Shown in pieces: positions 3,747 to 28,533 of a DNA stretch of 33,766 bases. The stretch lies in contig JACRQA010000104.1 in NCBI GenBank assembly GCA_016222915.1, forward strand, positions 1 to 33,766, given 5' to 3'. Each line of letters begins with the position of its first letter. Position 1 is the stretch's first letter. This DNA is from Nitrospirota bacterium. Its GTDB lineage: Bacteria > Nitrospirota > Thermodesulfovibrionia > UBA6902. Under the pieces are notes generated by a model, which worked only from the letters and a program-made list of their open reading frames with translations, was not told the origin of the DNA and ran no database searches. Position numbers and translations under genes: made by a program.

Positions 3747-3803
3747 TTTCCTTAGTTAATTTCAGAGAATGACCTATTGAGCTAAATTGTATGAATGCCG
3801 AAC
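3747..3803 (+). promoter_or_regulatory. Candidate conserved upstream element, copy A
   Basis: TCC 3749, TTCAG 3761, CCTATT 3773, CCGAA 3798: same order and spacing as copies upstream of 14510 and 28534. Confidence 0.5.
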
Positions 3804-3883
3804 AATAGTAAGACGGTATGTATAGTAGATTTACATAGTAAATCCTCAGTGTTATTACTCAGTTAACGAGATAAAGGAGCAAT

Positions 3884-6800
3884 ATGAGAAGGGTCGTTAG
3901 TTATAGTATTGTAAGAATTGCGAGCTTGCAACTATTGATTTTAGCAGTTTTATTGGTACTTGCAGGTAAAGAGGCGATGGGCCTCGATTATCCACATTTT
4001 GGAAACAACAACATAGGCTGCGATTCATGCCATTTCATATATGGAACTCAGCCTTCTCTATTGCCGCCATGGACTGCACATGAACCACAAAATATAGATG
4101 ATACTCAGTACAATACCCTCTGCTGGAGTTGCCACAACGACATAGAAGCTCCTCATGTACGCACACATTCAAGCCTTCAGATTGACGATAGCTATGGCGA
4201 CTGGACAGTGGAATGCAGGGTATGCCATAACCCTCACTATCAGAAGCAGAAGGAATATGGAAGCGCAAGTTATCTTTACTCAGGCACATCAACAACAGTA
4301 ACGGCATCATCCATTACAAAGACCGGGGCAGGCTGGGAAACGGATGTTTATGAGGGCATGGTGGTAATCCCTAATATTTCCCAGAATAAATATGTTTATA
4401 AAATTACAGATAATACGGATGATACATTAACGGTAGAGGGGCCGATGGATTTAACAAAGGTCACCACAGGGAATACCTTTGCAATATTATACGGTAATCT
4501 TATCAACAAGACCATTGATCTGAGCAAGATAACGATAGACCCCTCAAAGAGCGGAAACAAGACAGTCAGATTTTTCAGGAAGGAGGGAGCTAATTCCTTT
4601 GCGGACGGCAATTCATCATACGATGGAGTGTGCGAGGTTTGCCATACACGGACAACGCATTTCCGAAATGGAACATATACAGGCGACTCCTCATATTCTG
4701 ACCCCTTGCATGAGAATGTCGGTTCGCCTGCGGGAACTTATTGTATAGAATGCCATTCGCATGTTAATGGATTTGCACATGGCGGAGCAGGAGGCACAGG
4801 CTGCGACCAGTGCCATGGGCATGATGCAGGGTATGAAGGCGTCACTGGCGGCAAGGGGACGTATGTTGCCCATTCGACACATACGGAGAATGATTCCGAC
4901 GATCTTAGGGGGCCGCACGTAGACTGCGGTACTTGCCACAATACGAGCAGTTTTCCGAATTTTGCAGACGGTGTAAGCTATGCTGATTACAAGTCTGGTG
5001 CGGAAATGACGACGGTATGTAATCCCTGTCATAGTCCCGATGGTACATATAATGGAGTAAGCGATTCTGCTGTCGGAGCAAAGAACAACTGGAGCATATC
5101 AAAGAGTGCGGACAGCCGCATTTATGAGGCAAACGGCAGTTTGAAATCCGGAAAGGGGAAGTGGTGTGCGACATGTCATGATGAGTCTCCGTCTCAGATA
5201 CAGAGCATTAATGCCCCGAATGTAATAGGTGATGAGGACGGCTTATTCACCTACGGTACAGGATGGGGATTCTACAAGACAGGACATGGCTTGCCATCAG
5301 GGCAGACGTATCCGGCAAGCGGGGGTATAAAAGCAGGGGCTGGGAAGGGATGCCTCGACTGTCATTTATCTACCGTAGCTCATATAGACGGAAATGCGAG
5401 GACATTTGATGATCATGAAAGTTCCTCTACCGATCCAAGCGAATATCGCCAGGGCTACCGTCTCAAGTTGATAAGCAGCGAGGAGCCGATGATTATACCC
5501 AAAACCGGCAGGGCTGAAGCGTCTAATTCCAGATTGTGTTTCAGCTGCCACACGGACACTCCCTTTACAACGTCTGATGGCACGAACACAAATTACAGAA
5601 ATGGCTCCACCAACCTGCATTACTATCATCTTAATTTAAATGATAGCTTGCGTTTCAAGGCTGACTGGGGCAGCGGCGAAAGCTATGATAGCCAGGCCTA
5701 CACCAGCCGGATCACCTGCATAACCTGTCACAACGTACACGGTTCTACCAGGCTGTCCATGGTGCGCGACGGCAAACTCGTCAACAGGGAACCCGGCGTC
5801 AAGATATGGTACTACAACTCCGACATTTCCACTAATTCAAATCCTCCGCAGCCGGAGAACCTGCCGCTTTCGGCCAGCACCGGATCATTATGGCTTCCAG
5901 GGTCAGCCGGTAATGTATGCTATCCATGTCACGGTGGGACCAGCACCGAGATAAAGAACAGGAACCCTTTTCAGGATACTGACCAGTCACCTATTCTTGA
6001 ATGGACCGGTGAGACAAACTATACAAGCGACGGAGTTGACCCTGCCAGCGGCGCATCAGGAAGTGCTTTCACTTTCAGGGTCAAATATACGGATACAAAC
6101 AACGACTCGCCAATCTATATGCAAGTGTGGGTAGATGAAGATGACAGCGGCACTTATGAGCCCGGAGAAAAATATACGATGACCGGAGCAAGTTCCTCTG
6201 ATATTATCTATACGGACGGCAAGATGTACTACAAGACGCTCACCATAGACAGTGCCGGGGACAATATTATCAACTATCGTTTCTATGCATCGGATGGGAC
6301 TAATGATGCCACGGGCGCCCCGATGAGCGGAGGGACTATTACAATTTCCAGCAGTGCTCCAGTACTGTCATGGACAGGAGAAGCAACCTATACAAGTGAT
6401 GGGGTCAATCCTGACACGGGAGGAAACGGCGATGGTTTTGAATTCAGGGTCAAATATGCTGATGCAGACAATAATGCTCCGGCATTGATTCAAATATGGT
6501 TGGATTCGAATGACAGCGGTACCTATGAAGAAGGCGAAAAATATGCAATGACTGCAGTGACCGGCGGTGATACCACATATTCAGACGGCAAATTATATAC
6601 AAAGAGCCTGACAATCGCTTATGCCGGAGACGGAAATCTCAATTACCGTTTCTATGCAAGCGACGGCTCTGCCGGCGCAACAGGCAGTCCCACGTCAAAC
6701 AACATGGTAACTGTTCTTGACGGGACGAATAATCCTCCTTCACTTGACTGGGTAGTTGCAACATGCCTGACCAATGGCGTTAAACCCGCAGAGGGGCCAA

Positions 6801-12046: not shown

Positions 12047-12158
12047 ATTCCATCATCTGCTTTGAGGCGACAAGGGGAGCAAAGCCTGCACGAGCATCGA
12101 ATGAGCAATGTTGCATGTTGAATATTAAGGATTTTGAGCTGACCAATGCATCTTAGAA

Positions 12159-13100
12159 TCAGGAATGGGTGGAATGCGGTTTCAATTTTAACCGATTAAT
12201 AAAAAGTCCGCTCCCCAATATCAACACGCCTGAAATAAACAGGATATAACTTTCCGGCTCTGGCACAACGGCAGGATAAGGGGCCGCGAGACTGGTAGTA
12301 TTAATTCCATCCAGAATAAACTTCTGCGTCTCTGCTCCGCTGATTATATCAACCGTCATTAACCTGTTCCCTCCACGGATTGTATACAACTCCCCTGTAA
12401 CAGGGTAAAACTCCAACCCCACACCCCCGGCATTAACTGCAGGAGTCAGATTAATCGACGAGAGCCTTTGCCCTGTATTTTTATCAAGCTTGTATAACGT
12501 GTCATATGTACAACCCCAACTGAAATTACATCCTGAAAGGGCATATAGTTCATCAGTGCTAAAGTCTATTGCAAGACCGGTATGATAAATATTCGGCCCG
12601 GCATCGCCTATAAGACTGGACGTACCTGTTGCGGGATTTATCAAATAAAAATTATCACTTGGATATCCGTCGACAAGACCGTAGAGGTCCCCGCTCCTGT
12701 CAAACGCGAGGCCATTGGTCCATTGAGTGTCAGGATTCAGATTGGCAGCGCCGATAGGATTAATATAACCGGTATCATAGTTTATTGAATAGAGCTGGTT
12801 GGCTGCATTGTTCCAGCCGAAAAGTTCATTATCAGGGCTGAAGGCAAGCGCGTTTATTCTGAAATCGGGAGGGACCGGGGCAGGTGAGCCATTTTGGAAG
12901 TATAATGTAGTGACTACATCGGTTGTCCCATTTATTGGGTCAATGCTCCATAAAGCCGAATTCCCCTCAAAAGCAGTAATAGAATAAAACTTGTCATATT
13001 CCAGGGCGGCATTTGAAACGCCGGCAAACATAAATGACGTCATCATAAATATGACAGACAAAATTAATATTGCCCTAGTCGTGGTTTCATGTCTTTTCAT
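12159..13100 (-). CDS. PEP-CTERM sorting-domain protein, probable beta-propeller-like repeats
   Basis: Signal-like N-terminus; repeats such as LYSINYDTGYINPIG/LYGLVDGYPSDNFYLINPATG; C-terminal VPEPESYILFISGVLILGSGLFINRLK (12162-12266); strong SD (AAGGAG) before ATG on minus strand. Confidence 0.85.
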   Translation of the reverse strand: MKRHETTTRAILILSVIFMMTSFMFAGVSNAALEYDKFYSITAFEGNSALWSIDPINGTTDVVTTLYFQNGSPAPVPPDFRINALAFSPDNELFGWNNAANQLYSINYDTGYINPIGAANLNPDTQWTNGLAFDRSGDLYGLVDGYPSDNFYLINPATGTSSLIGDAGPNIYHTGLAIDFSTDELYALSGCNFSWGCTYDTLYKLDKNTGQRLSSINLTPAVNAGGVGLEFYPVTGELYTIRGGNRLMTVDIISGAETQKFILDGINTTSLAAPYPAVVPEPESYILFISGVLILGSGLFINRLKLKPHSTHS

Positions 13101-13116
13101 TTCTTCTCCTTAAGTG

Positions 13117-13995
13117 TCAATTTTTCAAAGCGCGCTGCCTTGAAAAACGTCTGAATCCCAATGCTGCTCCGCCCGTGATAAAGAGGACATAACTTATCGG
13201 CTCCGGAACTACGGCAGGTTGATAGGATATATTCATTTGAGTATCATTCAGCGTAATCCATCGATTCTTATTGGTGACCTGACCTTGTGGAATGGCGGTC
13301 CAGAAAAAAGAATCCCCAGAGTCCATTGAGATTGAAAGGTCAATTGGAATAACCATGTTCGGGCAGTTTCCGAAATTGGCGCCACATTCCATATCGGCTG
13401 AGAATGGGCTGGTAAGAAGATCATTTTTAAGTACGGTAACGCTGTTACTGGAAGAGTCAAAGTATCCCATAATGAGCTGTACATCAACGGGCGAGGCCCA
13501 GTAATTGCCTGTATAAGACATGCTTTGTCCGCCCCAGTATAGTCTTAGCGATCCAAGAATATCGATATCGGAATCATTCCCGACCGGATTAGTCCATCTG
13601 ATAAGAGATGAATTTTTATTTGCATTATAGCCGGAATAGAAGTTTGTATTTTGGTCCCAGCGGCTGATGTTGACGTCATTATCGTACATGGCCTGTCTTT
13701 TCCATCTGCCGTTACCGGGCATCGGATCTGTCCAATAATAAGCCATGTTCGAGGTATGCAGATAATCCGTTCCGGTAAACCACTCGTAACTCCAGACTGT
13801 GCTTCCCTGTGTGTCTTTTTTAAAATTCAAATCATTCGTGATCAGAAAATCGCCATTCCGGTCCCACGTAAAGCCGTCTTGATACTCAGCTCCCGACTTG
13901 CTAGCAGATCCACAAAGCAAAATTGCAGCGACAAATATTCCGACGGAAATCTCTTCCGCTTTTTTCAGGGCTGTCGTTAAAAGTTTATTTCTCAT
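13117..13995 (-). CDS. PEP-CTERM sorting-domain protein of unknown function
   Basis: Signal-like N-terminus; C-terminal VPEPISYVLFITGGAALGFRRFSRQRALKN (13120-13209). Followed by the 13100 gene after 16 nt, suggesting co-transcription. Confidence 0.82.
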   Translation of the reverse strand: MRNKLLTTALKKAEEISVGIFVAAILLCGSASKSGAEYQDGFTWDRNGDFLITNDLNFKKDTQGSTVWSYEWFTGTDYLHTSNMAYYWTDPMPGNGRWKRQAMYDNDVNISRWDQNTNFYSGYNANKNSSLIRWTNPVGNDSDIDILGSLRLYWGGQSMSYTGNYWASPVDVQLIMGYFDSSSNSVTVLKNDLLTSPFSADMECGANFGNCPNMVIPIDLSISMDSGDSFFWTAIPQGQVTNKNRWITLNDTQMNISYQPAVVPEPISYVLFITGGAALGFRRFSRQRALKN

Positions 13996-14399
13996 ATAAT
14001 TGTCTCGACTTTTAGTAGTGCGCTTAAGCTTCTTTCACCTTTATTTATTTCGCGTTAAATATGATCTGCTGCCCGACAGGCTTCCTGAACGGCTTCTCAA
14101 AACAAGATAAGTAAAAACGTGCAAGATAAATGCCACAATCATAATTCAATGAATCCGGGTGGTTATGTTTTCCTTAAGTCTTTTGATGTGCTTAAAACCG
14201 AGTGAAATCCCGCATTAGATGGTATTTTTACCTATGCTTAAGAAGCACGGATAATCCAGAGGCATCAGCTAAAATTGGTTGTTCCCCGGACTGTGGAGCT
14301 GATGAAAAAGTATTCTTCATTTAAGAAAGAAAATCAAATGCTGCAAGGTTTGAGTTAGATTGTGAGTCAGAGAGTGAAGAAAGGTATATGCTGTCCTAA

Positions 14400-14453
14400 T
14401 CCTTAGTTAAATTCAGGAAAAAACCTATTCATCATTTTCACTTAACATCCGAA
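14400..14453 (+). promoter_or_regulatory. Candidate conserved upstream element, copy B
   Basis: TCC 14400, TTCAG 14412, CCTATT 14424, CCGAA 14449; spacing identical to copies A and D. Confidence 0.5.
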
Positions 14454-14509
14454 TTGTAAATAGACAGCGTTTGGTATTGAGCAAAATAAATAATATCAGG
14501 AGGCCGGTC

Positions 14510-14704
14510 ATGAAAGGAAAGAATTATGCGGGTATCATCGGGACAGTAGCTCCAAAGTATGTTCATCGCGGAGAAACGTTTTATAAGGAAGTGATAAAGA
14601 AGCTTGACGCAAAGACAATTTTATGGTCAGCATTACATATCGGTGGATTTATGTTTGTAGCATCGATCCTGTTTTTACTGGTAATGCTCATCGCCACTTC
14701 CTGA
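14510..14704 (+). CDS. 64-aa small protein with one predicted transmembrane helix
   Basis: ATG at 14510 preceded by AGGAGG with 6-nt spacing; MKGKNYAGIIGTVAPKYVHRGETFYKEVIKKLDAKTILWSALHIGGFMFVASILFLLVMLIATS. The track start at 14471 (TTG) is less likely. Confidence 0.7.
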   Translation: MKGKNYAGIIGTVAPKYVHRGETFYKEVIKKLDAKTILWSALHIGGFMFVASILFLLVMLIATS

Positions 14705-14911
14705 TCGGACAAAGAGTGTGCTGTTTATTATGACTGGGACCCGATGTGATGTCCGATTGAATCGATTGCGGCATTCTCACCTCATTCTCTTTCCTTTTAA
14801 TCGTACTGGACTGGCCTGTTGAAATTAAATATCTTGTGCTGTAATATCAGCGAAGAGCGCATCGTCAAGAATCTTGAGTAATCAATAGAAGAATAAATTA
14901 AGGCGAAAAAA

Positions 14912-15532
14912 ATGAAACTGGAAGTGCCGGTCATAGGAATCCTGCGTGGAGTGGAAGCTGCCTATTTTCAGAACATAATGGATACCTCGTTTGCTTCAGG
15001 CCTGCAGGCAATTGAGATTACGATGAACACTGACCGGGCAGTGGAGATCGTTTCGTCGAACAGGGCGTCTGTGCCTTCCGGAAAATTACTGGGAATGGGG
15101 ACGATATGCAATCTTGCGGAAGCTGAAATGGCCATTGACGCCGGGGCCATGTTCCTTGTTACGCCTAATACGGACACGGCGGTCATTGATTATGCAGTAT
15201 CAAAATCAGTCCCGGTGATATCAGGGGCGCTGACTCCTACAGAAGTATATACTGCGTGGTCTGCCGGCGCTGACATGGTCAAGGTCTTTCCATGCCGGCC
15301 ATTCGGTCCTGAATATATCCGTGAACTCAGAGGACCTTTTGACCATATCCCCATGGTCGCGGTAGGGGGCGTTGACCCCGGCAACATCATAGAGTATTTC
15401 GCTGCCGGCGCAAAGGCCGTGGGCGCAAGCGCCTCGCTTTTCGGCCGCAAGGCATTGATGGAGCATGACCTTGATGAAATTGCCCGAAATGTTAAAAAAT
15501 TTATTGCCCTTTGCCCTGATCAGAAGAAATAA
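14912..15532 (+). CDS. KDPG/KHG aldolase family protein (2-dehydro-3-deoxy-phosphogluconate aldolase-like)
   Basis: VPVIGILRG, AIEITMNTDRA, GMGTI, GAMFLVTPNTD, GALTPTEVYTAWSAGADMVKVFPC, VAVGGVDPGNIIEYFAAGAKAVGASASLF: hallmark Eda-family motifs. Confidence 0.9.
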   Translation: MKLEVPVIGILRGVEAAYFQNIMDTSFASGLQAIEITMNTDRAVEIVSSNRASVPSGKLLGMGTICNLAEAEMAIDAGAMFLVTPNTDTAVIDYAVSKSVPVISGALTPTEVYTAWSAGADMVKVFPCRPFGPEYIRELRGPFDHIPMVAVGGVDPGNIIEYFAAGAKAVGASASLFGRKALMEHDLDEIARNVKKFIALCPDQKK

Positions 15533-15533
15533 A

Positions 15534-15573
15534 TTATAATATCCCCTCAGATAAAACTTTCTTAATATTATAA
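15534..15573. promoter_or_regulatory. Perfect 9-bp inverted repeat between the two aldolase genes
   Basis: ttataatat (15534-15542) and atattataa (15565-15573), abutting the SD of the 15585 gene. Confidence 0.4.
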
Positions 15574-15584
15574 GGAGACGATAT

Positions 15585-16535
15585 ATGTACAGACCTGAAA
15601 TAAAAGTTATAGACTGCTCTGTCCGCGACGGGGGATTAATGAATAAGTGGCAATTTTCCGACTCTTTCGTATGCAAGGTCTATACGGCTTGCACGGAAGC
15701 AGGCGTCGATTATATGGAGATCGGTTATCTGAGCTCGGAGTCTGCTTTTTCACGGGCCGAGGTAGGGCCGTGGAAGTTTTGCGCTGAAGATGACATCCGG
15801 CGCATTATCGGCAAGACAGAGAAAAAGATCAAGCTCTCTGCTATGGCCGACATCGGCAGGATCGAATATAATGACATCCCCCTAAAATCCGATAGCTCCC
15901 TGGACATGATCCGGGTCGCATGTTATGCGCATCAAACTGACGCCGCAATAGCCCTGGCCCATCATTGCATCGACAAAGGCTATGAGACAACCATAAATCT
16001 CATGGCGGTCTCCACAGTGGGATTGCGCGAGTTGGACGAGGCACTTGATGATCTTTCAAAGAGTCGGGTGCCGATAGTTTACGTTGTAGACAGCTTTGGC
16101 GCTTTCTATTCCGAGGACATAGACCTGCTTTCCAAAAAATACATGGAGCGCCTCCCCGGCAAGACTATCGGGATACATTGTCACAACAACCAGCAACTGG
16201 CCTTCGCCAATACCATATCTGCAATCATCTCTGGGGTCAATTATCTCGACGCCAGCTTGTACGGAATCGGACGCGGGGCCGGCAACTGCCCGCTTGAACT
16301 TCTGATAGCATTCCTGAAAAATCCCAAGTTTAAGGTGCGTCCACTTATTGAGGCCATAGAGGCCGAGATCCTTCCGTGGACGGAAAAGATCGACTGGGGT
16401 TATTACATTCCGTATATGGTATCGGGCGTGCTGAACCAGCATCCACGCGCGGCCATGGCGCACATGGAGTCCGACATGAAGAATAAAATTACGCAATTCT
16501 TTGATCAGATGACGAGCGCCACCGAGTTGGGATAA
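15585..16535 (+). CDS. DRE-TIM (HMGL-like) metallo-aldolase, 4-hydroxy-2-oxovalerate-aldolase-like
   Basis: SD AAGGAG; VIDCSVRDGG near N-terminus, YMEIGY, GIHCHNNQQLAFANTISAI, YLDASLYGIGRGAGNCPLELL. Confidence 0.85.
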   Translation: MYRPEIKVIDCSVRDGGLMNKWQFSDSFVCKVYTACTEAGVDYMEIGYLSSESAFSRAEVGPWKFCAEDDIRRIIGKTEKKIKLSAMADIGRIEYNDIPLKSDSSLDMIRVACYAHQTDAAIALAHHCIDKGYETTINLMAVSTVGLRELDEALDDLSKSRVPIVYVVDSFGAFYSEDIDLLSKKYMERLPGKTIGIHCHNNQQLAFANTISAIISGVNYLDASLYGIGRGAGNCPLELLIAFLKNPKFKVRPLIEAIEAEILPWTEKIDWGYYIPYMVSGVLNQHPRAAMAHMESDMKNKITQFFDQMTSATELG

Positions 16536-16730
16536 TTAGGAAATTACCAACTATCGAGTCGGATTCAACTGATTGTTGATATAAGAAATCGGAACTCAAC
16601 TGCTGCGCAATATCTTATGTGAAGGTGCGTGAATTCCCCCAGATGAGCTGTCCCAATCCTGACTGATCAAGTGTTATCTCCTTATTGTAAGGTAAGTTGG
16701 AGTATCCGGTTTTACTGGTATTTATATTGC

Positions 16731-16786
16731 TTATTTCCTTAAGTTTTCAGTATTATTCCACGAAATAAATAATAAACTAAGTCGAG
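16731..16786 (+). promoter_or_regulatory. Diverged relative of the upstream element (copy C)
   Basis: TTTCCTTAAGTTTTCAG with TTCAG at 16746, CC at 16758 (+12) and TCGAG at 16782; TCC-TTCAG spacing is 10, not 12. Confidence 0.25.
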
Positions 16787-16805
16787 TTACTGAAAGGAAT
16801 TTTAT

Positions 16806-19800
16806 ATGAGGGGAGTGTCCTTAAAAAGGGTCTTCGCCGGAATATTGAGCCGGAAGCTGAGACTATTTGTAAGCTCTAATCTGTTCTGCTTTTCAATTTT
16901 TGTATTAATCCTGCTGATATCGTCGGCGCATGCGGCCCTGGACTTCCCGCATTTCGGGAACAACAACATCGGCTGCGACTCCTGCCATTTTGTGTACGGG
17001 TCACAACCGTCATTGATGCCGCCGTGGACAGCTCATACGCCGCAGGACATTGACGATACTCAATACAATACCCTCTGCTGGAGCTGCCATAACGATATTG
17101 ACGCCCCATACGTAAGAACGCATTCAAGCCTTCAGACGGACAGCGGCTATGGAAACTGGACCGTTGAGTGCAAGGTCTGTCATAACCCTCATTATCAGAG
17201 GCAGCTCAGGACATATGGAAGTTCTGCCTATCTTTATTCGGGGGTATCGACGGAAATTACATCCGCAACAATTACTCAGACAGGGGCGGGTTGGGGGGAG
17301 GACCAATGGGCAGGGATGATTGCGGTCGGCAATATAGCCAAAGCCGATTACAACTACAAAATAATCGGCAACACGGCGGACACGCTCACAGTACAGGGGC
17401 CGATGAACCTGACAAAAATCGCCACGGGGAACACCTTTGCAATAATTTACGGGAAGCTCATAAAAGATACGGTTGACCGCAGCAAGATTACACCTCCCAA
17501 GACCGACACCAAGACGGTAAGGTTTTTCAGGGACACAGGAAGCAAGTCATTTGCCGACGGTGATACAACGTATGACGGCATATGTGAAGTATGCCACACT
17601 CAAACCAGCTATCATGACGAAATAGGCTCCGGCGCTGCTCATAATGAAAGCCTGAAATGTGTCCAATGCCATAATCATGTCAACGGCTTTGCGCACGGCG
17701 GCGGAGGCGGAGGCGGCACGGGATGCGGAGATGCCTCAAGCTGTCACGGCCTGCAGAAGTCACATCCTACGCACGTCGATGGAAGTGGAATGCATTTGTC
17801 GCTTGCCTGTTCAGAATGCCACGATACATCCAATTTCCCTCAATTTAAGGACGGCCAGACTCTTGCGACAACAACCGTATGCAATCCCTGCCACAGTCCG
17901 GGGGGCACGTATGACGGTGTCTATGATCCGAATATCGGAGTCAAAATCAATTTCACCAATGGCGTATACGATAATAACGGGACCAGTCTTAAGCCTGGCA
18001 AAGAGAAGTGGTGCGCAAGCTGCCACGATGAAGGGCCTTCGGTTATTCAGGGCGTAAGCGCACCGAACGTTGTCGGCGATGAAGAAGGCGCTGAATACGG
18101 CTACGGCTATACCTGGGGATATTATCTTAGCGGTCACAAGATCGGCTGCCTCAATTGCCATGACGCCGCAAAACGTCATATCGACGGCGCGTACAGGACT
18201 TATGAAGTCCTGGATGACAGCCAGGCGAATGAATCAGTCCCTACGCCTTATACCGATGCTTACCGTCTGGCGAATGTTAAAGGCAAACCTGCGATGGTCA
18301 TTCCCTTAAACCCGACGGCCCCTTCGTACAATCTGCTTGACAGCTTTGCGCTCTGTTTCAAGTGCCATAAAAAGAATGACGTGATGGGGACGGCGTATAA
18401 TGACCGCGGCCGGACGAACTTTTATAATGCGACCTCCGGCCAAAACGCGCATTGGTATCATTTGCCCCTGGGCGACAACTATTACGATTCTGACTGGGAC
18501 ATCACGACTTACTCGACTTCGTTCCAGAAGCTCGATTCAGCGGTGTCCTGCGTTGCCTGCCATAACGTACACGGCGCGCCCAACCAGGCGATGCTCAGGC
18601 ACGGCGAGCTTATCAGCCTTCCGGGACAAACCAATGCCGTGCCTGCATTCAATATGAAATACATTCTGCCCGGCGATGGGGCCGGGGCGGTGAAGTTCAC
18701 CCCCACGCTCCCGCAGGCCGGTGATTATGAGGTCTTTGCCTATTGGGCATCGCTTAACGGCCGCAATGAGATTTCCCGCGCGGCAACCAACGCGCCGATC
18801 ACTATTTCTTACAACGGCGGGGCGCAGAGCGCGCAGTTGACAAAGGACCTGCGGTACAACTGCTGCAGTTGGAAATCCCTCGGAATTTATTCTTTCACCG
18901 GAGCAGGGAATGAATATGTCGAGATGACTTCGTCCGCTGCCGACGGCGCTATCATCGCGGACGGCATGAAGTGGGTGAAGACGGACACCGGCGCAGAGGT
19001 AGTGATGGATGAAGAGGCCGCTTCTTTCCTGCCGTCGACCAATGACTGGACCCTGAGGAGCAACCCGGGATACAGTTTAAACGATGACTACCGGGACTAT
19101 GGTCCTATTACCAGCACAACCGCGCCGGTTTCGCAGAGCGTAGCCGGGGCAGGGCCGGGCAGCTCGGGGCCGGTCAATAACCGGATATGCACTGCCTGTC
19201 ACTACAGCCCTGTCTGGCACCGCACCCCGAACCCTTTGCCGATGGTCATTCCATTGACCTTTGATGACGAAATCACAGCGGACGGCACAGTCGATCTGCT
19301 CTTCGGGGCCTGGGTGAAATCCCCGGGAGGAGTTATCACTTCTGTAACTATTGATCTTTCAGTAATAGGAGGCGGTCAGACCCAGACATTATATGACGAT
19401 GGCACACACGGTGATACTGTCGCCGGTGACAACCTCTACAGCTTTCTCCGGACGATTCCCGATTACGCCCCTTCAGGCACTAATACATTTCACATTATCG
19501 CTGTGACCAGCCAGGGGCAGGGTGAAGCCGATCTTGAGGTCACCTTCGTCACGCCAGGAGAAATCATCTGGGACAACGACAGCGGCGACGGATTGTGGAG
19601 CACACCTGAAAACTGGAGCGCTGACAGTCTTCCTGTTGCAGGTGACAAGGTTGTCTTTAAACATACTTCAAACACCAATTGTTTTGCCGATACTATTCCG
19701 GCGGGACTGACATACATCGGCTTGAATCCGGGTTATACTGCTACCCTGACTCTATCGTCAAATCTCAATGGCGGGTCGAGAACGTTAAACGTTAACGAAC

Positions 19801-22800
19801 TTCGTGCATACGCCGGACATCTGCTTCTGCAGGGCGATACCTCAGTCGTCAATGCAGCCTCCGGCGGCACCGCAGACAAACCGCATGGGGCCGGGCTTAC
19901 GATCAATGCATCAAACGTGATCGTCGGTCCAAGCGGCCACATCAGCGCAGACGGCCAGGGATTCGGCCCGCAATCCGGTCCCGGCGCAAGCAGCGTCAAC
20001 TGGGCGTCCGGCGGGAGTTACGGCGGTTTCGGAACATCCACCGATGGCATACGCGATACGTTCCCCTATGGGTCGATTACCGAGCCTACCGCGCTCGGAA
20101 GCGGCGGGGCAACTGTATCGAGCGGCGGCAGCGGCGGCGGGGCAATGAAGCTCATTGTATCCGATACGGTGACGGTCAGAGGACTGATTTCCGCAGCCGG
20201 CATCAATGCCGACGGCGGCGGCTCGGGCGGCAGTGTATGGATCATTACAAACAGGATCGAAGGTGAAGGCACGATCAGCGCCAGGGGCGGCTACAACGCC
20301 TACCGCACAGGCGGCGGCGGTCGAATATCATTACAGTGGAACAGCGGCAATTTCGATTTTGACGGATTGATTACCACCGAGGGTTCAACCGGCGCGACGA
20401 ACGGGTCGTTATGGGTGAATGCGGTGGGCGGCAGCAACGCCTGGGCCGAGATGTGGAATGCATCACGGCCGGTAAACAGCCTTGTGGCAATCCCACCCGG
20501 AGAATATACTCTTAACGATCTGCGCATTCTGAATGGCGCAAATATCGAATGTCTGGGAGACCGGAGCGCGATCAACGCAGCGTCGGGCGGGACCGAAGCG
20601 ATACCACACGGCAGCGGCGTCACGATTCATTCCAACAACATCGTGATAGAATCGGGCGGCATTCTTTCAGCCGACGGCATGGGCTTTTATCCGCAGCAAG
20701 GCCCAGGTACCGGGGCGTCAAATGGCGGCAGCTATGGCGGATATGGCATGGGCGTAGACAGCCAAAGGCGGTCGTTTGCATACGGCTCCGCACTGGTCCC
20801 CACCGCGCTTGGCAGTGGCGGCGGCACATCGCAAGCCGGACCGGGCGGGGGCGCGATAAAGCTGGACGTATCCGGCAATGTAACAATTGACGGGACACTT
20901 TCGGCGGTAGGACACGGCTGTAAGATGTCGACTGCCGGTTCAGGCGGCAGTATTTGGATCGTTGCAAACACTATAGCCGGATCAGGATTGATCAATGCAA
21001 GCGGCGGCGATGACTGGTGGGGCACGGGTTACAGCGGCGGCGGCGGCAGAATTAGGCTTGATTGGCAAACGGGCAAGTACTTGTTCAACGGCATAGTGAA
21101 GGCCGAGGGGCCGGATAACGCAACAAACGGCGCCCTCTGGGTAAATGCGGTGGGCGGCAGTAATTCCTGGAATGAGTTGTGGAATGCCTCGCGCCATGTT
21201 ACCGGCTCTGTTGCCTTGCCTTCGGGAACATACACGATTTCAGAGCTTCACATAGACTCAGGCGTCTCTTTGGATGGACAGGGAGACCCGACTGTCATCA
21301 ATGCGGCCTCCGGCGGCACAGCCGATAAACCCCATGGCCAAGGCGTAATAATCAACGCTGATAACATTACGATTGCAAGCACTGCATCGCTAAACGCCGA
21401 CTTCATGGGCTTCCGGCCGCAGCAAGGCCCCGGAGGAAATCTTGATTGGGGCGGCAGTTACGGCGGTTACGGAAACCATATCTACGGCTGGCAGAGAGGC
21501 TCTCTATACGGCTCTTTTACTGAACCAACAGCGTTAGGCAGCGGCGGAGGTGGCTTTTCCACCAACGGTTTGGGCGGCGGCGCCCTCAAATTAAATGTCA
21601 GCGATACGATCACTATTAACGGTACCCTTTCAGCCAACGGCGAGGCGGTCAAGGGCGGAGGCGGTTCCGGCGGCAGTATTTGGGTCACAGCCGATACGAT
21701 AACCGGAACAGGCGCGATCAGCGCCATGAGCCCGCTGCGGTGGGCATCAGCCTACAGCGGCGGGGGCGGTCGCATATCCCTGCAGTGGAACACCGGCAAC
21801 CTTTCATTTACCGGACAGGTAAAGACAGAGGGTGTTGGCACTGCAACGAGCGGCACCCTTTGGGTCAATGCGGTAGGCAGCGCCAATTCCTGGAATGAGC
21901 TGTGGAATGCCTCACGTCCTGTAAGCGGTTCGGTGGCCCTGCCTTCAGGCTCATATGACATTGCCGAGTTGACCATTCCTTCCGGCATCAGACTGGATGT
22001 TCAGGGAGACAATGGCGCAAGCGGCGCTGAAGGCGCAGGGGTGACGATCAATTCCAATAACATCACAGTTGAAACAGGGGCGACTATTCGAGGCGACTCG
22101 CTTGGCTTCAGACAAAGGCAAGGCCCCGGAGCGGCAACCTCAGGTCTGTATGGCGCGAGCCACGGCGGTATCGGCTCATCCGGCGCCCCGATATACGGCT
22201 CCGAAACCTTGCCTGTATCCCTGGGCAGCGGCGGCAGTGACTCAAGCAGTGGCGGACCAGGCGGCAGCGCAGTCAAGCTGGCGGCAGAAAATACATTGAC
22301 CATCAACGGATCAATCTCCGTAAACGGTCAAGGCACAACCGGCGGCGGCGGCGCGGGCGGCAGCGTCCTGCTGATTACCGACATCCTTGCCGGAGCCGGA
22401 TCGATCACTGCCAACGGCGGCTCAAACGGCGGCGGCGGGGGCCGGATCGCGGTCCATTACAATACCGACAATTCATTATTGAGCAGCAATAGTACGGCAA
22501 ACGGCGGCAGCGGCACACCTTCCGGCGGAAACGGAACGATAGACTTTGCGAATGATGCAGACGGGATATACGCGGGCATGAAGAGCGCCTTCGCTTCGGA
22601 TGCCTCCGGCGGCGGGGCCGGGATCCAATCCGGCGATCAAGTGGTTATCCAATTCAGAGGCCCGACCGAGGGGACTGCTATAACTGCCGGCAACATCGAT
22701 ACAGCCCTTCAATTGTCGAACTCTCATTCCTGGCTGGACAGCCTGGGCGGCATTCAGCCGGCTGTATGGTCGACAGATATCTACACAAACGATACCTTGA

Positions 22801-23588
22801 CCATTAACCTGTCCATAGCCGGCGGAGTCCCGGATGTTGCAGTGGGAGACAATATTACTATGGGTGGAGTTATTAGGGATGATTTAGGCAATTACCCCAC
22901 CGGGACTGTAATCCTGAGCGGCTTCTTCGGTTCTATTCCGATGGGAGCGGTTGCTTATTGGCCAATGGATGAAGGCAGCGGCGACAAAGTGTTTGAAGCG
23001 ACGGGAAGCAGCAATGACGGCACGCTTAAGCCAAATTATCCGGCTGACGCTCCGGCCTGGAATCCGGCAGGCCATACAGCCTCGGCCCTGTCTTTTGACG
23101 GTGTCAATGATTATGTCGATACAGGTAATCCGGCCTCTCTCAACCCGGCCTGGCGCGAGCCGTTTTCCGTGGAGGCATATGTAAAATTCAATTCGCTGAC
23201 CAACTTCCATATGCTGGTTACCAAAATCAATAATGCCTTACCTTACCGCGGCTGGCAGTTGTGTAAGGACAGCGCCAATAAAATTGCTTTTTACCTCGTG
23301 GACGATTTCGGAGCAGGCAAGTATTTACTGCGCACCTCCTCCAGCGCTGTTACCACGGGCACATGGTACCACGTGGTTGTAACGTATGACGGCGGCGCGA
23401 CGGGCAATTCCATCAACATATATTTAAACGAGGCGCTCGACCAGGCCGCTCCTACCGACGGAGCGAACGCCGCAGCAATGACCACAATCGCTAATACAGA
23501 GAACGTGAAGCTTGGTGTGCGGGGGACGAATAGTTATCCTTTCAAGGGGACCATGGACGAGGTAATTATTTACAGACCTGGGTATTAA
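16806..23588 (+). CDS. Giant (2260 aa) multiheme cytochrome fused to golvesin-C-like, Gly-rich repeat and LamG-like modules
   Basis: SD AAAGGAA; signal peptide ending AHA; 12 canonical CxxCH plus one CX5CH; C-terminal WPMDEGSG...DGVNDYVDTG...TMDEVIIYRPGY LamG-like signature. Confidence 0.9.
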   Translation: MRGVSLKRVFAGILSRKLRLFVSSNLFCFSIFVLILLISSAHAALDFPHFGNNNIGCDSCHFVYGSQPSLMPPWTAHTPQDIDDTQYNTLCWSCHNDIDAPYVRTHSSLQTDSGYGNWTVECKVCHNPHYQRQLRTYGSSAYLYSGVSTEITSATITQTGAGWGEDQWAGMIAVGNIAKADYNYKIIGNTADTLTVQGPMNLTKIATGNTFAIIYGKLIKDTVDRSKITPPKTDTKTVRFFRDTGSKSFADGDTTYDGICEVCHTQTSYHDEIGSGAAHNESLKCVQCHNHVNGFAHGGGGGGGTGCGDASSCHGLQKSHPTHVDGSGMHLSLACSECHDTSNFPQFKDGQTLATTTVCNPCHSPGGTYDGVYDPNIGVKINFTNGVYDNNGTSLKPGKEKWCASCHDEGPSVIQGVSAPNVVGDEEGAEYGYGYTWGYYLSGHKIGCLNCHDAAKRHIDGAYRTYEVLDDSQANESVPTPYTDAYRLANVKGKPAMVIPLNPTAPSYNLLDSFALCFKCHKKNDVMGTAYNDRGRTNFYNATSGQNAHWYHLPLGDNYYDSDWDITTYSTSFQKLDSAVSCVACHNVHGAPNQAMLRHGELISLPGQTNAVPAFNMKYILPGDGAGAVKFTPTLPQAGDYEVFAYWASLNGRNEISRAATNAPITISYNGGAQSAQLTKDLRYNCCSWKSLGIYSFTGAGNEYVEMTSSAADGAIIADGMKWVKTDTGAEVVMDEEAASFLPSTNDWTLRSNPGYSLNDDYRDYGPITSTTAPVSQSVAGAGPGSSGPVNNRICTACHYSPVWHRTPNPLPMVIPLTFDDEITADGTVDLLFGAWVKSPGGVITSVTIDLSVIGGGQTQTLYDDGTHGDTVAGDNLYSFLRTIPDYAPSGTNTFHIIAVTSQGQGEADLEVTFVTPGEIIWDNDSGDGLWSTPENWSADSLPVAGDKVVFKHTSNTNCFADTIPAGLTYIGLNPGYTATLTLSSNLNGGSRTLNVNELRAYAGHLLLQGDTSVVNAASGGTADKPHGAGLTINASNVIVGPSGHISADGQGFGPQSGPGASSVNWASGGSYGGFGTSTDGIRDTFPYGSITEPTALGSGGATVSSGGSGGGAMKLIVSDTVTVRGLISAAGINADGGGSGGSVWIITNRIEGEGTISARGGYNAYRTGGGGRISLQWNSGNFDFDGLITTEGSTGATNGSLWVNAVGGSNAWAEMWNASRPVNSLVAIPPGEYTLNDLRILNGANIECLGDRSAINAASGGTEAIPHGSGVTIHSNNIVIESGGILSADGMGFYPQQGPGTGASNGGSYGGYGMGVDSQRRSFAYGSALVPTALGSGGGTSQAGPGGGAIKLDVSGNVTIDGTLSAVGHGCKMSTAGSGGSIWIVANTIAGSGLINASGGDDWWGTGYSGGGGRIRLDWQTGKYLFNGIVKAEGPDNATNGALWVNAVGGSNSWNELWNASRHVTGSVALPSGTYTISELHIDSGVSLDGQGDPTVINAASGGTADKPHGQGVIINADNITIASTASLNADFMGFRPQQGPGGNLDWGGSYGGYGNHIYGWQRGSLYGSFTEPTALGSGGGGFSTNGLGGGALKLNVSDTITINGTLSANGEAVKGGGGSGGSIWVTADTITGTGAISAMSPLRWASAYSGGGGRISLQWNTGNLSFTGQVKTEGVGTATSGTLWVNAVGSANSWNELWNASRPVSGSVALPSGSYDIAELTIPSGIRLDVQGDNGASGAEGAGVTINSNNITVETGATIRGDSLGFRQRQGPGAATSGLYGASHGGIGSSGAPIYGSETLPVSLGSGGSDSSSGGPGGSAVKLAAENTLTINGSISVNGQGTTGGGGAGGSVLLITDILAGAGSITANGGSNGGGGGRIAVHYNTDNSLLSSNSTANGGSGTPSGGNGTIDFANDADGIYAGMKSAFASDASGGGAGIQSGDQVVIQFRGPTEGTAITAGNIDTALQLSNSHSWLDSLGGIQPAVWSTDIYTNDTLTINLSIAGGVPDVAVGDNITMGGVIRDDLGNYPTGTVILSGFFGSIPMGAVAYWPMDEGSGDKVFEATGSSNDGTLKPNYPADAPAWNPAGHTASALSFDGVNDYVDTGNPASLNPAWREPFSVEAYVKFNSLTNFHMLVTKINNALPYRGWQLCKDSANKIAFYLVDDFGAGKYLLRTSSSAVTTGTWYHVVVTYDGGATGNSINIYLNEALDQAAPTDGANAAAMTTIANTENVKLGVRGTNSYPFKGTMDEVIIYRPGY
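16974..19202 (+). other. Multiheme region of the 16806 protein (12 CxxCH + CX5CH)
   Basis: First CDSCH at 16974; last CTACH ends 19202, lying after the golvesin-like insert. Confidence 0.88.
18664..18996 (+). other. Golvesin C-terminal-like (carbohydrate-binding-like) domain inserted before the last heme motif
   Basis: AGDYEVFAYWASLNGRNEISRAATNAPITISYNGGAQSAQLTKDLRYNCCSWKSLGIYSFTGAGNEYVEMTSSAADGAIIADGMKWVK. Confidence 0.65.
19213..19552 (+). other. Choice-of-anchor-X-like domain
   Basis: SVTIDLSVIGGGQTQTLYDDGTHGDTVAGDNLYSFLRTIP. Confidence 0.45.
19848..22520 (+). repeat. Four Gly-rich ~241-aa tandem repeats (last one shorter/diverged)
   Basis: [VI]NAASGGT...PHG.G starts at 19848, 20571 and 21297 (723 and 726 nt spacing); fourth at ~22009 (NGASGAEGAGVTINSNN). 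Each carries GSYGG[FY]G, LGSGG, GSGGS[VI]W[IV], GGGGRI, LWVNAVG. Confidence 0.85.
22561..22925 (+). other. Recurrent 'IQSGD..V.I.F' module, copy 1
   Basis: GIQSGDQVVIQFRGPTEGTAITAGNIDTALQLSNSHSW...AVWSTDIYTNDTLTINLS...GDNITMGGVIRDDLG. Confidence 0.7.
22939..23585 (+). other. LamG/concanavalin-A-like domain
   Basis: GAVAYWPMDEGSGD...ALSFDGVNDYVDTG...FSVEAYVKF...TWYHVVVTYDGG...INIYLNEAL...GTMDEVIIY. Confidence 0.85.
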
Positions 23589-23618
23589 TGCTTGGGCAGA
23601 TAACAAGAGGGGCGTTAT

Positions 23619-26600
23619 TTGAGACTGAGGGGTGGGACATTTTCAGCAGGACATCATATTATTAAGAGCAACATATTGCTCTTAACGCTGATGCTGGTCC
23701 TGTCAGCAGTCTCAGTATTTGCAGCGACTGATTACCCTCATTCGGGCATCAACAACATCGGCTGCGACTCCTGCCATTTTGTGTATGGGTCACAGCCGTC
23801 CTTATTGCCTCCGTGGACCGTGCATGCCCCTCAGGACATAGATGACACTCAATACAACACCCTCTGCTGGAGCTGCCATAACGATATCGATGCCCCATAT
23901 GTGCGAACTCATTCGAGCCTTCAGACGGACAACGGCTATGGAGACTGGACCGTAGAATGCAAGGTCTGTCATAACCCTCATTATCAGAGGCAGTTCAGGG
24001 TCTATGGAAGCCAAAGCTACCTTTATTCAGGACAGTCGACGGGAGTTACATCAACAACCATCACCCGTGCAGGGGCGGGCTGGGAGGAAAACCAGTGGGC
24101 AGGTGAGATAGTTGTCGGCAATATTTCCAAACCCGATTACAATTACAAGATCATAAGCAATACTGCAGATACATTGACGGTGCAGGGGCCTGTAAATTTG
24201 ACGAAGGTCATCACTGGGAACACCTTTGCAATCATATACGGGAAACTTGTAAAGGAATCGATTGACCGCAGTAAGATCACCCCGCCAAAGACTAACGTCA
24301 AGACGGCAAGATTTTTCAGAGATACAGGGAGCAAGTCATTCGCAGATGGTGACGCGACATATGACGGCATATGTGAAGTATGCCACACAGAGACCAACTA
24401 TCATGACGAAATAGGCTCCGGTGCAGCGCATAATGAGGGAGTGCGATGCACTCAGTGCCACAACCATGTCAACGGGTTCGGGCATGGTGGCGGAGGCGGC
24501 ACAGGCTGCGATTCCTGCCACGGCCATGATGCAGGCTGGCAAGGCAATAATAATCTTGGGAAGGGGACGTTCAAAAGCCATTCGACCCACACTGAAAACG
24601 ACAGTGATGATTTAAAAGGGCCTTATATTGTCTGCGGTGATTGTCACGACACGGGCAGCTTCCCTAATTTTAAATCAGGCGCGGATATAAACGGCGATGG
24701 TAAATTTAATCTTTTGGAGACTGATGTCTGCAACCCTTGCCACAGCCCTGAGGGTACATATGACGGAGCTAACAACAATGTGATCGGCGCAAAGGCCAAC
24801 TGGCAGGAGGGCATTTATAATGCTGATGGCGCTACATTGCAGCCGGGCAAGGAAAAGTGGTGCGCGGGTTGTCACGATGAAGGGTCTTCAATTATTCAAA
24901 GCGTCAGCGCTCCAAACGTTATCGGCGATGAAGATGGTGTATACACATATGGTATAGGCTGGGGTTTTTACAAGACCGGTCATGGTCTGCAGGACGGCCA
25001 GGTCTATCCTTCCAAGGACGGTGACTTTCCACCCTTGATGGTCAACGGCTCGACACGCCCAATCGGGTGCAGCAGTTGTCATGATTTTTCCAGCAGACAC
25101 ATTGACGGAGTGGACAGGACGTACGGCACGCAATCGATTACCGCGGCAGGTTACCGGCAGGGCTACCGGTTAAAGATGGTGAACGGCAAAGAGCCCATGC
25201 AAATACCAAGGCCGGGAAGCAGTATTAACTTCGACGACTACCTGCTCTGCTTCCAGTGTCACGAATCAGAGCCGTTTCTTGATCCCATAGATGAGCGATC
25301 AAACATGGCGCAGCGCAGCACCGGCAATGCTAATTTGAAGGTCGGTCATTATTATCACTTGAGTCAAATATGGTGGCAGGGCTGGAAATCCGACTGGAGG
25401 ACGACATCAAACAGCGGAGTGAGCTGTCCGCAGTGCCACAACGTTCACGGCAGCAAGAACATGGCGATGTTGTCCGATGGATCGCTTACCGGCACACCGC
25501 CGGGCTTTGAATTTTACTATTACAACAGGGCGCTTTCCAGTAAGGACATCAACGGCTACAATCCGCCGACGCCTCGGAATATGCCTTTAAGGCTTGCCGA
25601 CGGCTTCCAATGGCTGCCGCTAAGCACCAACAGGGTCGGTTGCAGCGCGACATGCCATGGTCAAATTCTATATAGAAATTTCGAATGGACCCCTTACAAT
25701 GTTCCAAACAGCCCTCCTGTCCTTTCGTGGACGGGCGAGACCAATTACACGTCCGATAGTGTTTATCCCAAAAGCGCTGTATCAGGAAGTAATTTCGAGT
25801 TCAGGATCAATTACGCGGACCACTTGACTAATATGGACGGAGGAGGTTTTTATAATTCCCCGAGCTATATTAGGGTGATGCTCGACAATAATAATGACGG
25901 CGTTTTCGAGACAGCTTACTCCATGGACTACGTGAGCGCAGCGCCCTCAGGCGGGAGGATATATAAGAAGATCATATCCATCAGAAATACTTACAGCAAT
26001 ACCATACGCTACAAAATTTCAGCGGCAGACGGGCCGGACACCGTGTCTACCGGCTCTTCTCCCAGCGGGCTGCAGGCTGTCGGCGACCCTGCGAATGAAA
26101 ACACAATCTCGATAATCAATCGCGCGCCTGTGCTTTCATGGACTAACGAGACGAATTATGAAAATGACGGTGTTAATCCAAACGCCGGGGCCGTCGGACA
26201 GGCTTTCACCTTCAGAGTCAAATATACGGACCCAGACAATCAGCCGCCTGATGCAAACGGAGTGCGGGTCATTGTTAATGGTGTTGAATATGTCCTGGAT
26301 GAGAAGGCCGGCGGTTATTACGATACCGGGAGAATCTACTACAAGGTCATAGCTCTTACCACCGCAGGAGAGCTCAGCTACAGGTTTATCGCTAATGACT
26401 ACTTTGGCCTTCCGGCCACTGGAGAGCCTGTGTCTGATCATACAGTGACGGTGCAGGCGTCTTCCACGCCCCCAACCCTTGAATGGGTTATTGAGCCGGG
26501 CCGCATAGAAGGGATCAAACCAGCAAGCGGCGTATCGGGCGATGAATTCGAATTCAGGATCAAGTACACGGACCTGAATAACCAGTGGCCTCCGCTGGCG

Positions 26601-28214
26601 GGCTATATGAGGATATGGATTGATAAGAACGATAACGATAATTTTGATAATGGCGAGACCTACGAGATGCTGGAAGAAGTCGCCGGATCAGGATGCGTCA
26701 GCGGTAAGTTGTACAAGATTGCCGTGAGGCTTGTGTATGCAGGAGACGGTATTTTGAAATACCGCTTCCTGGCGTCAAACGGCGTGGACGTAGCATCAGG
26801 AGAGCCGGCAACGGACAAATATCTTACACTGGCCAATTCAAAGATATGGACTACTGACGTTGATTTCAACGCAGGTATCAAGACCGGAGTAAGCGTCAAC
26901 GGGGTCTCGGAAGCTGCTTATGTTACCCTCCAGACGGGGGCTGAAAACTGGAGCGCCGTCAGCGTGACCGGACAGTCGCCGGCAACGTCATGGGGACCTA
27001 TGGTTTATGACAGCCACTGCAAAAAATTCATCTACTACGACGGAAGCTCCTATGAATTTAATCCGGCGCTCAAGCAATGGACAAAATTCACGGCAGCGGG
27101 CAGCCCGCCGACAAATGCGTCCGGATGGGGCTGGGCGGGTTCGTCTTTAATGACCTATGACCCGGACAGGGACAGAGTGGTCATGCTTGCATACAACGGA
27201 CAGACCTGGGAATACCATGAGGGCGTCTGGACGAACAGAAACGCCCAAAACATCAATTACCCGGGTTACAACAGATTTAAGTATGCAATGGTCTATGACC
27301 CGACACTTCGAAAGGTCATACTCATCGGTGGCACAATCGGTCCCGGAGTAAGCTATGCCTATTCCGGCCCCATTGTAGTATATGAAGAGACCTGGGCCTA
27401 TGATCCTGTACTGAATAGCTGGGAACCGGTGTTTTTTAACAATACCAATCCACCGGACGGGAAGGGCTTCTCATCTTCCAAGGTGAACCAGACAATAGCG
27501 GTTTTTGACTCATCGGCCAATAAAGTAATCATACCTTACGGAGGGGGCTATTCTTATAACTCTTCCGGCACATTCAGCTTTGGTCCTACCGACTGGATAT
27601 GGAGCAATCTGAATATTTCAACTCCGAACCGTATGTATCAAATTCCGCTCGCATACGATTCCACAAAGGGCAGGGCGGTCCTTTACGGCGGGGCCTTCAA
27701 TGATACACCGCAATATACAACATGGGTCTTTAACTCGACCGATTTCACATGGCAGCAATTGTCCCCGGCAAATTCGCCTTCAGTCGCCGCCGGTTCCATG
27801 TCGTATGATAGTAATAATATGAAGATGATTCTCAACGGTGGATCAGGAGGGACCTGGGCATTTGGAAATACTTATTCTCTATCAAACGAGGGAACAATTT
27901 CCGGCCTGAAAATAGACGCTGGTGAAGGGGCGACTGTTCAATGGAATACCATAGCATGGCATGCCAATGTCCCAATGGGGACCAGCATTAAGTTCCAGGT
28001 AAGGACGGGAAATAGCGAAGGCGAACTTGGCAACGCAATTTTTACCGGACCTGATGGCACAGATCAGACTTATTACACAATATCAGGCAGCCCGCTTGCA
28101 AGTGTTACTAAGACCCACTTCATTGAAGTCAAAGCGGTCCTGACTACAACCGATGTATCCGGAAGTCCAATTCTATATTCGTTGACTGTAAGCCATGATG
28201 TGGCTCTGCAATAA
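23619..28214 (+). CDS. Multiheme cytochrome (1531 aa) fused to Ig-like repeats and a Kelch/galactose-oxidase-like region
   Basis: Likely TTG start 30 nt after the previous stop (probable operon); signal-like N-terminus; 12 canonical CxxCH plus one CX3CH. Confidence 0.88.
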   Translation: MRLRGGTFSAGHHIIKSNILLLTLMLVLSAVSVFAATDYPHSGINNIGCDSCHFVYGSQPSLLPPWTVHAPQDIDDTQYNTLCWSCHNDIDAPYVRTHSSLQTDNGYGDWTVECKVCHNPHYQRQFRVYGSQSYLYSGQSTGVTSTTITRAGAGWEENQWAGEIVVGNISKPDYNYKIISNTADTLTVQGPVNLTKVITGNTFAIIYGKLVKESIDRSKITPPKTNVKTARFFRDTGSKSFADGDATYDGICEVCHTETNYHDEIGSGAAHNEGVRCTQCHNHVNGFGHGGGGGTGCDSCHGHDAGWQGNNNLGKGTFKSHSTHTENDSDDLKGPYIVCGDCHDTGSFPNFKSGADINGDGKFNLLETDVCNPCHSPEGTYDGANNNVIGAKANWQEGIYNADGATLQPGKEKWCAGCHDEGSSIIQSVSAPNVIGDEDGVYTYGIGWGFYKTGHGLQDGQVYPSKDGDFPPLMVNGSTRPIGCSSCHDFSSRHIDGVDRTYGTQSITAAGYRQGYRLKMVNGKEPMQIPRPGSSINFDDYLLCFQCHESEPFLDPIDERSNMAQRSTGNANLKVGHYYHLSQIWWQGWKSDWRTTSNSGVSCPQCHNVHGSKNMAMLSDGSLTGTPPGFEFYYYNRALSSKDINGYNPPTPRNMPLRLADGFQWLPLSTNRVGCSATCHGQILYRNFEWTPYNVPNSPPVLSWTGETNYTSDSVYPKSAVSGSNFEFRINYADHLTNMDGGGFYNSPSYIRVMLDNNNDGVFETAYSMDYVSAAPSGGRIYKKIISIRNTYSNTIRYKISAADGPDTVSTGSSPSGLQAVGDPANENTISIINRAPVLSWTNETNYENDGVNPNAGAVGQAFTFRVKYTDPDNQPPDANGVRVIVNGVEYVLDEKAGGYYDTGRIYYKVIALTTAGELSYRFIANDYFGLPATGEPVSDHTVTVQASSTPPTLEWVIEPGRIEGIKPASGVSGDEFEFRIKYTDLNNQWPPLAGYMRIWIDKNDNDNFDNGETYEMLEEVAGSGCVSGKLYKIAVRLVYAGDGILKYRFLASNGVDVASGEPATDKYLTLANSKIWTTDVDFNAGIKTGVSVNGVSEAAYVTLQTGAENWSAVSVTGQSPATSWGPMVYDSHCKKFIYYDGSSYEFNPALKQWTKFTAAGSPPTNASGWGWAGSSLMTYDPDRDRVVMLAYNGQTWEYHEGVWTNRNAQNINYPGYNRFKYAMVYDPTLRKVILIGGTIGPGVSYAYSGPIVVYEETWAYDPVLNSWEPVFFNNTNPPDGKGFSSSKVNQTIAVFDSSANKVIIPYGGGYSYNSSGTFSFGPTDWIWSNLNISTPNRMYQIPLAYDSTKGRAVLYGGAFNDTPQYTTWVFNSTDFTWQQLSPANSPSVAAGSMSYDSNNMKMILNGGSGGTWAFGNTYSLSNEGTISGLKIDAGEGATVQWNTIAWHANVPMGTSIKFQVRTGNSEGELGNAIFTGPDGTDQTYYTISGSPLASVTKTHFIEVKAVLTTTDVSGSPILYSLTVSHDVALQ
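23763..25658 (+). other. Multiheme region of the 23619 protein (12 CxxCH + CX3CH)
   Basis: CDSCH at 23763 through CSATCH ending 25658. Confidence 0.88.
25710..26830 (+). repeat. Three Ig-like repeats related to those in the 3884 protein
   Basis: VLSWTGETNYTSDSVYPKSA, VLSWTNETNYENDGVNPNAG, TLEWVIEPGRIEGIKPASG; loops DNNNDGVFE and DKNDNDNFDNGE. Confidence 0.65.
26990..27880 (+). other. Kelch/galactose-oxidase-like beta-propeller region
   Basis: Repeated pattern PMVYDSHCKKFIYYDG..., LMTYDPDRDRVVMLAYNGQTWEY, AMVYDPTLRKVILIGG, LAYDSTKGRAVLYGGA, SMSYDSNNMKMILNGG. Confidence 0.75.
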
Positions 28215-28416
28215 GCATAGAGTAATATCCCTCACGACAAGGTGAAATAAAACATCGTCTCAATATTTATTAAGAATACCCGCCTGTATTTATGAAATAA
28301 TTTTAAATTTATCGGATGGTATTTTATTTGCTTATTTAAATAGGGAGGAGGGGCATACAAGAATTTTGAAAATACAGCGCAGGAAAAATACTAATAGAAC
28401 TTATTTCGTTCTGCCT

Positions 28417-28474
28417 GATTTCCTGATGCATTTTCAGATAAATCCCTATTGAGGAAATAAATATAATCTCCGAA
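28417..28474 (+). promoter_or_regulatory. Candidate conserved upstream element, copy D
   Basis: TCC 28421, TTCAG 28433, CCTATT 28445, CCGAA 28470. Confidence 0.5.
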
Positions 28475-28533
28475 TGAGATTCATCTATAAGGCGGAAATG
28501 TAGCCAACAATTGCAGTTAAGAAAGAAGAGATA

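Follow-up and report, generated by a model that had tools for sequence, protein, structure and literature searches.

Class-3 flagellar and chemotaxis genes are transcribed from sigma-28 (FliA) promoters of the form TAAAGTTT-N11-GCCGATAA, and in Geobacter multiheme cytochromes are under the control of c-di-GMP-I (GEMM-I) riboswitches. To our knowledge, it has not been established how uncultured Nitrospirota time the production of their giant surface cytochromes. In Geobacter, fliC and one che cluster have predicted sigma-28 promoters (PMC2577667). One report on Shewanella proposes that swimming cells sense electron acceptors via outer-membrane cytochromes (PMC5789149); co-regulation of cytochromes with motility would therefore be sensible.

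The window analysed here (the whole stretch of 33,766 nucleotides, contig C64 of a genome of 3.0 Mb and 94% completeness) contains three copies of an element which resembles the sigma-28 class-3 promoters both in its -35 TNAG and -10 CCGAWA, at a TNAG-N15-NCCG spacing, and in the chemoreceptor and surface genes that lie behind it in relatives. Unlike those promoters, it adds a conserved 30-bp upstream region (the putative operator), has TATTNAG for CTAAAG and, in the window, CCGAA, and has giant multiheme cytochromes among its likely targets. A literature search found no description of the element, which is weak evidence given that open-access coverage alone was available. What would be new is the pairing of a probable sigma-28-type promoter with a conserved putative operator; cytochromes were not expected among the genes behind it.

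A 62-bp element before three genes of the window

The initial annotation had described a pattern, TCC-N9-TTCAG-N7-CCTATT-N19-CCGAA, at 3749, 14400 and 28421, and it is present on the plus strand at all three positions, exactly and with the order and spacings claimed; 0.01 matches are expected even with three mismatches allowed, and none of 100 shuffles reached three matches. The genome-wide statistics are based on a pattern search of the genome and on simulated sequence. In the 3.0-Mb genome, the exact pattern occurs at the three window sites and at no others. The 42-base core likewise has exactly three exact matches in this genome, and allowing up to two mismatches adds two scattered matches, each with two. 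The distances to the start codons also agree with the annotation (135, 110 and 113 nt to the ATGs at 3884, 14510 and 28534), the CCG lying 86, 61 and 64 nt before the ATG at sites A, B and C, respectively.

The observed architecture is exact, with a 62-bp consensus of TTTCCTKA, N7, TCAGGAAA, then CCYTATTNAG, 15 bases and (G/T)CCG(A/T)(A/T), all at fixed distances. Its 5' half, TTTCCTKA-N7-TCAGGAAA, is an odd-centred dyad, and this upstream part is the most conserved in the profile. The first ten sites align gap-free with 14 invariant columns, and of 18 aligned sites, 17 have CCG or TCG at a constant distance. For cross-validation, a 62-column profile was made from 15 sites of other genomes only, the window sites being excluded; the window sites score 45.6-47.2 bits with it, against 14.5 bits for the next-best window position and no more than 15.1 bits anywhere in 18 Mb of simulated sequence. 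The seeds had initially been located with the window pattern, so that the core bases depend on it, whereas the columns around them do not. The window sites are thus of the same family as those of the relatives. Two further copies that had been proposed, a diverged one at 16734 and a weaker one at 14791 before the KDPG aldolase, depart from the internal spacing, reach -7.9 and -16.5 bits with the same profile, and are not members.

Table 1. Elements and genes of the window, and loci of related genomes with the element upstream.
Feature	Position or locus	Strand	Detail
Element A, 62 bp	3747..3808	+	Pattern, core and profile searches; flank comparison
Element A, dyad half-sites	3747-3754; 3762-3766	+	TTTCCTTA; TCAGA
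Element A, CCTATT; -35-like; -10-like	3773-3778; 3777-3781; 3797-3803	+	CCTATT; TTGAG; GCCGAAC
Element B	14398..14459	+	Pattern and profile searches; flank comparison
Element B, upstream part	14400-14405; 14412-14417	+	TCCTTA; TTCAGG
Element B, CCTATT; -35-like; -10-like	14424-14429; 14428-14432; 14448-14454	+	CCTATT; TTCAT; TCCGAAT
Element C	28419..28480	+	Pattern and profile searches; flank comparison
Element C, upstream part	28419-28426; 28433-28438	+	TTTCCTGA; TTCAGA
Element C, CCTATT; -35-like; -10-like	28445-28450; 28449-28453; 28469-28475	+	CCTATT; TTGAG; TCCGAAT
Multiheme cytochrome, 2720 aa	3884..12046	+	Behind element A; 13 CXXCH; Calx-beta and beta-helix repeats
64-aa protein	14510..14704	+	Behind element B; predicted single membrane span
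Multiheme cytochrome	28534..33766	+	Behind element C; at least 16 CXXCH; open at contig end
Two beta-helix ORFs	69-950; 1031-3478		
Two secreted proteins	12159-13995	-	
KDPG/KHG aldolase and HMGL-like gene	14912-16535	+	3' of the 64-aa gene
Two giant multiheme cytochromes	16806-28214		12 CXXCH each
Single or tandem MCPs	L154, L161, L247		
Periplasmic binding protein and MCP	L155, L159, L162, L166		
Histidine kinase and sensor or binding protein	L248, L251		
LuxR-type response regulator	L249		Beside Hpt and receiver proteins
Coat-protein-U pilin	L163		Neighbours resemble chaperone/usher set
PilZ	L156, L157		
Small lipoprotein	L150, L152		
Glycosyltransferase	L250		
Homologous cytochromes	L153 (two sites), L158, L160		

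The 64-aa protein has no Pfam or NCBIfam match, and the named relatives of the cytochromes are mostly from Nitrospirota/Thermodesulfovibrionia MAGs. Elsewhere in the window, the two beta-helix ORFs look like a single gene with a frameshift near 930-950 (assembly error or decay), because the continuing frame (NADDIDGDTRTGSIDIGSDEYA...) is that of the second ORF. The two secreted proteins encoded between genes that follow elements have PEP-CTERM-like C-termini (VPEP...), the second being above the TIGR02595 cut-off. The aldolase and HMGL-like genes come after the 64-aa gene in the same orientation, and element B might therefore drive both too; the models closest to the HMGL-like gene are those of 4-hydroxy-2-oxovalerate aldolase, with scores below their cut-offs. 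The two remaining giant cytochromes, 30 nt apart and probably forming one operon, are without the element, though they are paralogues of the two element-bearing ones.

Distribution of the element in related genomes

A first scan of 150 relatives, in which one mismatch was allowed, turned up sites like these within the family, and several precede genes for homologous cytochromes, chemoreceptors and binding proteins; more strong sites came from searching 37 family genomes with a profile. A second profile, built from 18 sites and run on 231 class genomes, returned five more non-training sites at E < 0.001, one of them in another family; an even sample of 396 genomes from across the phylum contained no site outside the class. 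In both family and class, the strong profile matches are located 5' of genes, with about 30-190 nt between them and the start, and the genes that they precede are mainly those of chemotaxis, surface structures and related cytochromes (Table 1). Since the sites were picked by DNA pattern alone, this association with gene classes is not circular. An exact core match in G021 (L013) falls within coding sequence, probably by chance, and was set aside.

Within the genome studied, the element occurs before the three window genes alone, all on the window contig. It was seen neither before flagellin nor before the MCPs of that genome that were examined. The suggestion that it defines a regulon therefore holds across the class, in many genomes, and does not extend to this genome, where three copies occur on one contig. 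A LuxR-type response regulator adjoins two sites (L247, L249); its homologues occur in 35 of the 37 family genomes regardless of the element, and it is therefore not discriminating as an activator candidate. At L154 only, a single case, a gene for a cNMP-binding protein lies 3' of the chemoreceptor. Five genomes with no FliA over the cut-off and no flagellin (G009, G012, G013, G022 and G026) have no strong site, a number too small for any conclusion.

Promoter geometry and rival explanations

The last two parts of the element, its 3' half, have the geometry of a sigma-28 promoter, and FliA is encoded in the same genome (TIGR02479, 255.6 bits; G000:C156). The flagellin promoter of this genome (CTAAAG...ACCGATATAG) and its MCP promoters (TCAAG-N15-GCCGATAAG at L198, TAAAG-N15-GCCGATATG at L199) have a -10 CCGATA in the same spacing range as the element, and flagellin genes of the family show CTAAAG-N14/15-(G/T)CCGATA. 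The family flagellin promoters (L168-L188) have an upstream dyad of their own just before CTAAAG, CTGGAAA-N5-TTTACAG, which is unlike that of the element studied. A -35 of the form T(N)AA/AG at the genome's own sigma-28 spacing (14-15 bases after AG) is present at A (TTGAG-N15-GCCG) and C (TTGAG-N15-TCCG), with TTCAT at the corresponding place in B. All three -10-like sequences of the window read CCGAA, as opposed to the (G/T)CCGATA of sigma-28. Several sites of the relatives read CCGATA, CCGATAAG or TCGATAG, and (C/T)CGATA is found in four of the five non-training sites. Canonical T(N)AG-N14/15-(G/T)CCGATA lies upstream of 6 of 24 cytochrome homologues (0.04 expected, none antisense); of these six, L051 alone had also served to train the profile. 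In G005 and G025, homologous PilZ-gene sites keep the operator without the CCG, with GATAAT two bases downstream. Given the CCGAA of the window and these two PilZ-gene sites, the sigma factor is one that we infer rather than one that is shown.

A common promoter/operator, as the initial annotation had it, agrees well with the upstream positions in many genomes, the sigma-28 geometry of the 3' half and the conserved dyad of the 5' half. From the sequence comparisons, we consider it probable that the element combines a sigma-28-type promoter and, upstream of it, the operator of a putative activator. The downstream module, TTNAG-N15-(G/T)CCG(A/T)(T/A)A, would be the FliA-type -35/-10 pair, while the dyad and the CCYTATT that follows it, overlapping the -35, would form the operator, from which a putative, probably dimeric, activator would help the holoenzyme. 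Transcription would start about 10 nt after the CCG, and the regulator would be expected to activate rather than repress.

The 5' part may instead be a transcription-factor operator that works with another sigma factor (housekeeping or ECF), with CCGWA only partly sigma-28-like and a real -10 of CCGAA or CCGTA. We regard this as rather unlikely: the window -10s do depart from CCGATA, the upstream part is the best conserved, and the PilZ-gene sites hold it without CCG and with GATAAT nearby, but the fixed CCG/TCG distance, the (C/T)CGATA of the non-training sites, the chemotaxis genes behind the sites and the plain sigma-28 promoters on cytochrome homologues all argue against it. Far less probable is a 5'-leader RNA common to the three mRNAs, be it a riboswitch or a protein-binding leader. 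Such a leader, which had been offered as an alternative, would be in keeping with an element 110-135 nt before the ATGs and with the c-di-GMP-I riboswitches on relatives of two of the genes; however, RNAalifold on the 18-sequence alignment found no pairs and no conserved structure, the window has no Rfam match, and the distance to the gene varies, down to about 30 nt.

It can hardly be credited that the sites are functionless copies of an upstream region duplicated among paralogues, or a chance pattern. Two of the three genes are indeed paralogous cytochromes of one cluster, yet the third is unrelated, the same element precedes unrelated genes in other genera, and the expected count is very low, as given above. 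Identity among the three window regions is 56-63% inside the element, 26-28% upstream and 28-38% downstream; with unrelated flanks and similarity that ends at the element edges, recent duplication is ruled out as the source of the three copies, which were therefore kept by selection. Profile scores, flank comparison and cross-genome sites together largely refute this explanation.

Cytochromes between a probable promoter and riboswitches

As a sigma-28-type promoter with operator, the element would drive, in its own genome, a small membrane protein and two giant multiheme cytochromes, which are probably on the outer surface; its targets in relatives would be chemoreceptors, binding-protein/chemoreceptor operons, signalling kinases, pili and homologous cytochromes. 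Production of the cytochromes of extracellular electron transfer (EET) would then probably be coupled to the program of sensing and motility. As in Geobacter, surface cytochromes appear to be tied to the decision between motile and attached states, with c-di-GMP-I riboswitches at sister loci; unlike in Geobacter, the window genes carry no riboswitch and have the promoter element instead. In G021 (C276; L217/L255), a c-di-GMP-I-GGC riboswitch precedes the gene for a 64-aa-protein homologue (38% identity, E 3.9e-4), with that for a cytochrome homologue of 16 CXXCH immediately after it, and the cytochrome homologue L050 has a c-di-GMP-I riboswitch upstream (2715-2794), followed by a sigma-28-type promoter. 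Sister genes would thus be under motility-type promoters or c-di-GMP riboswitches, both of which may be readouts of the motile/attached decision.

We tentatively propose, as a possibility somewhat short of an even chance, an activator-dependent sigma-28(-like) regulon of the Thermodesulfovibrionia in which giant EET cytochromes are switched with chemoreceptors and pili, and in which c-di-GMP riboswitches are an alternative wiring on sister genes. The 62-bp signature is exact and can be searched for, and the hypothesis on sigma factor and activator lends itself to testing. Sharing of the probable promoter with chemoreceptors points to an electron-transfer machinery that is made during swimming and the search for minerals or partners.
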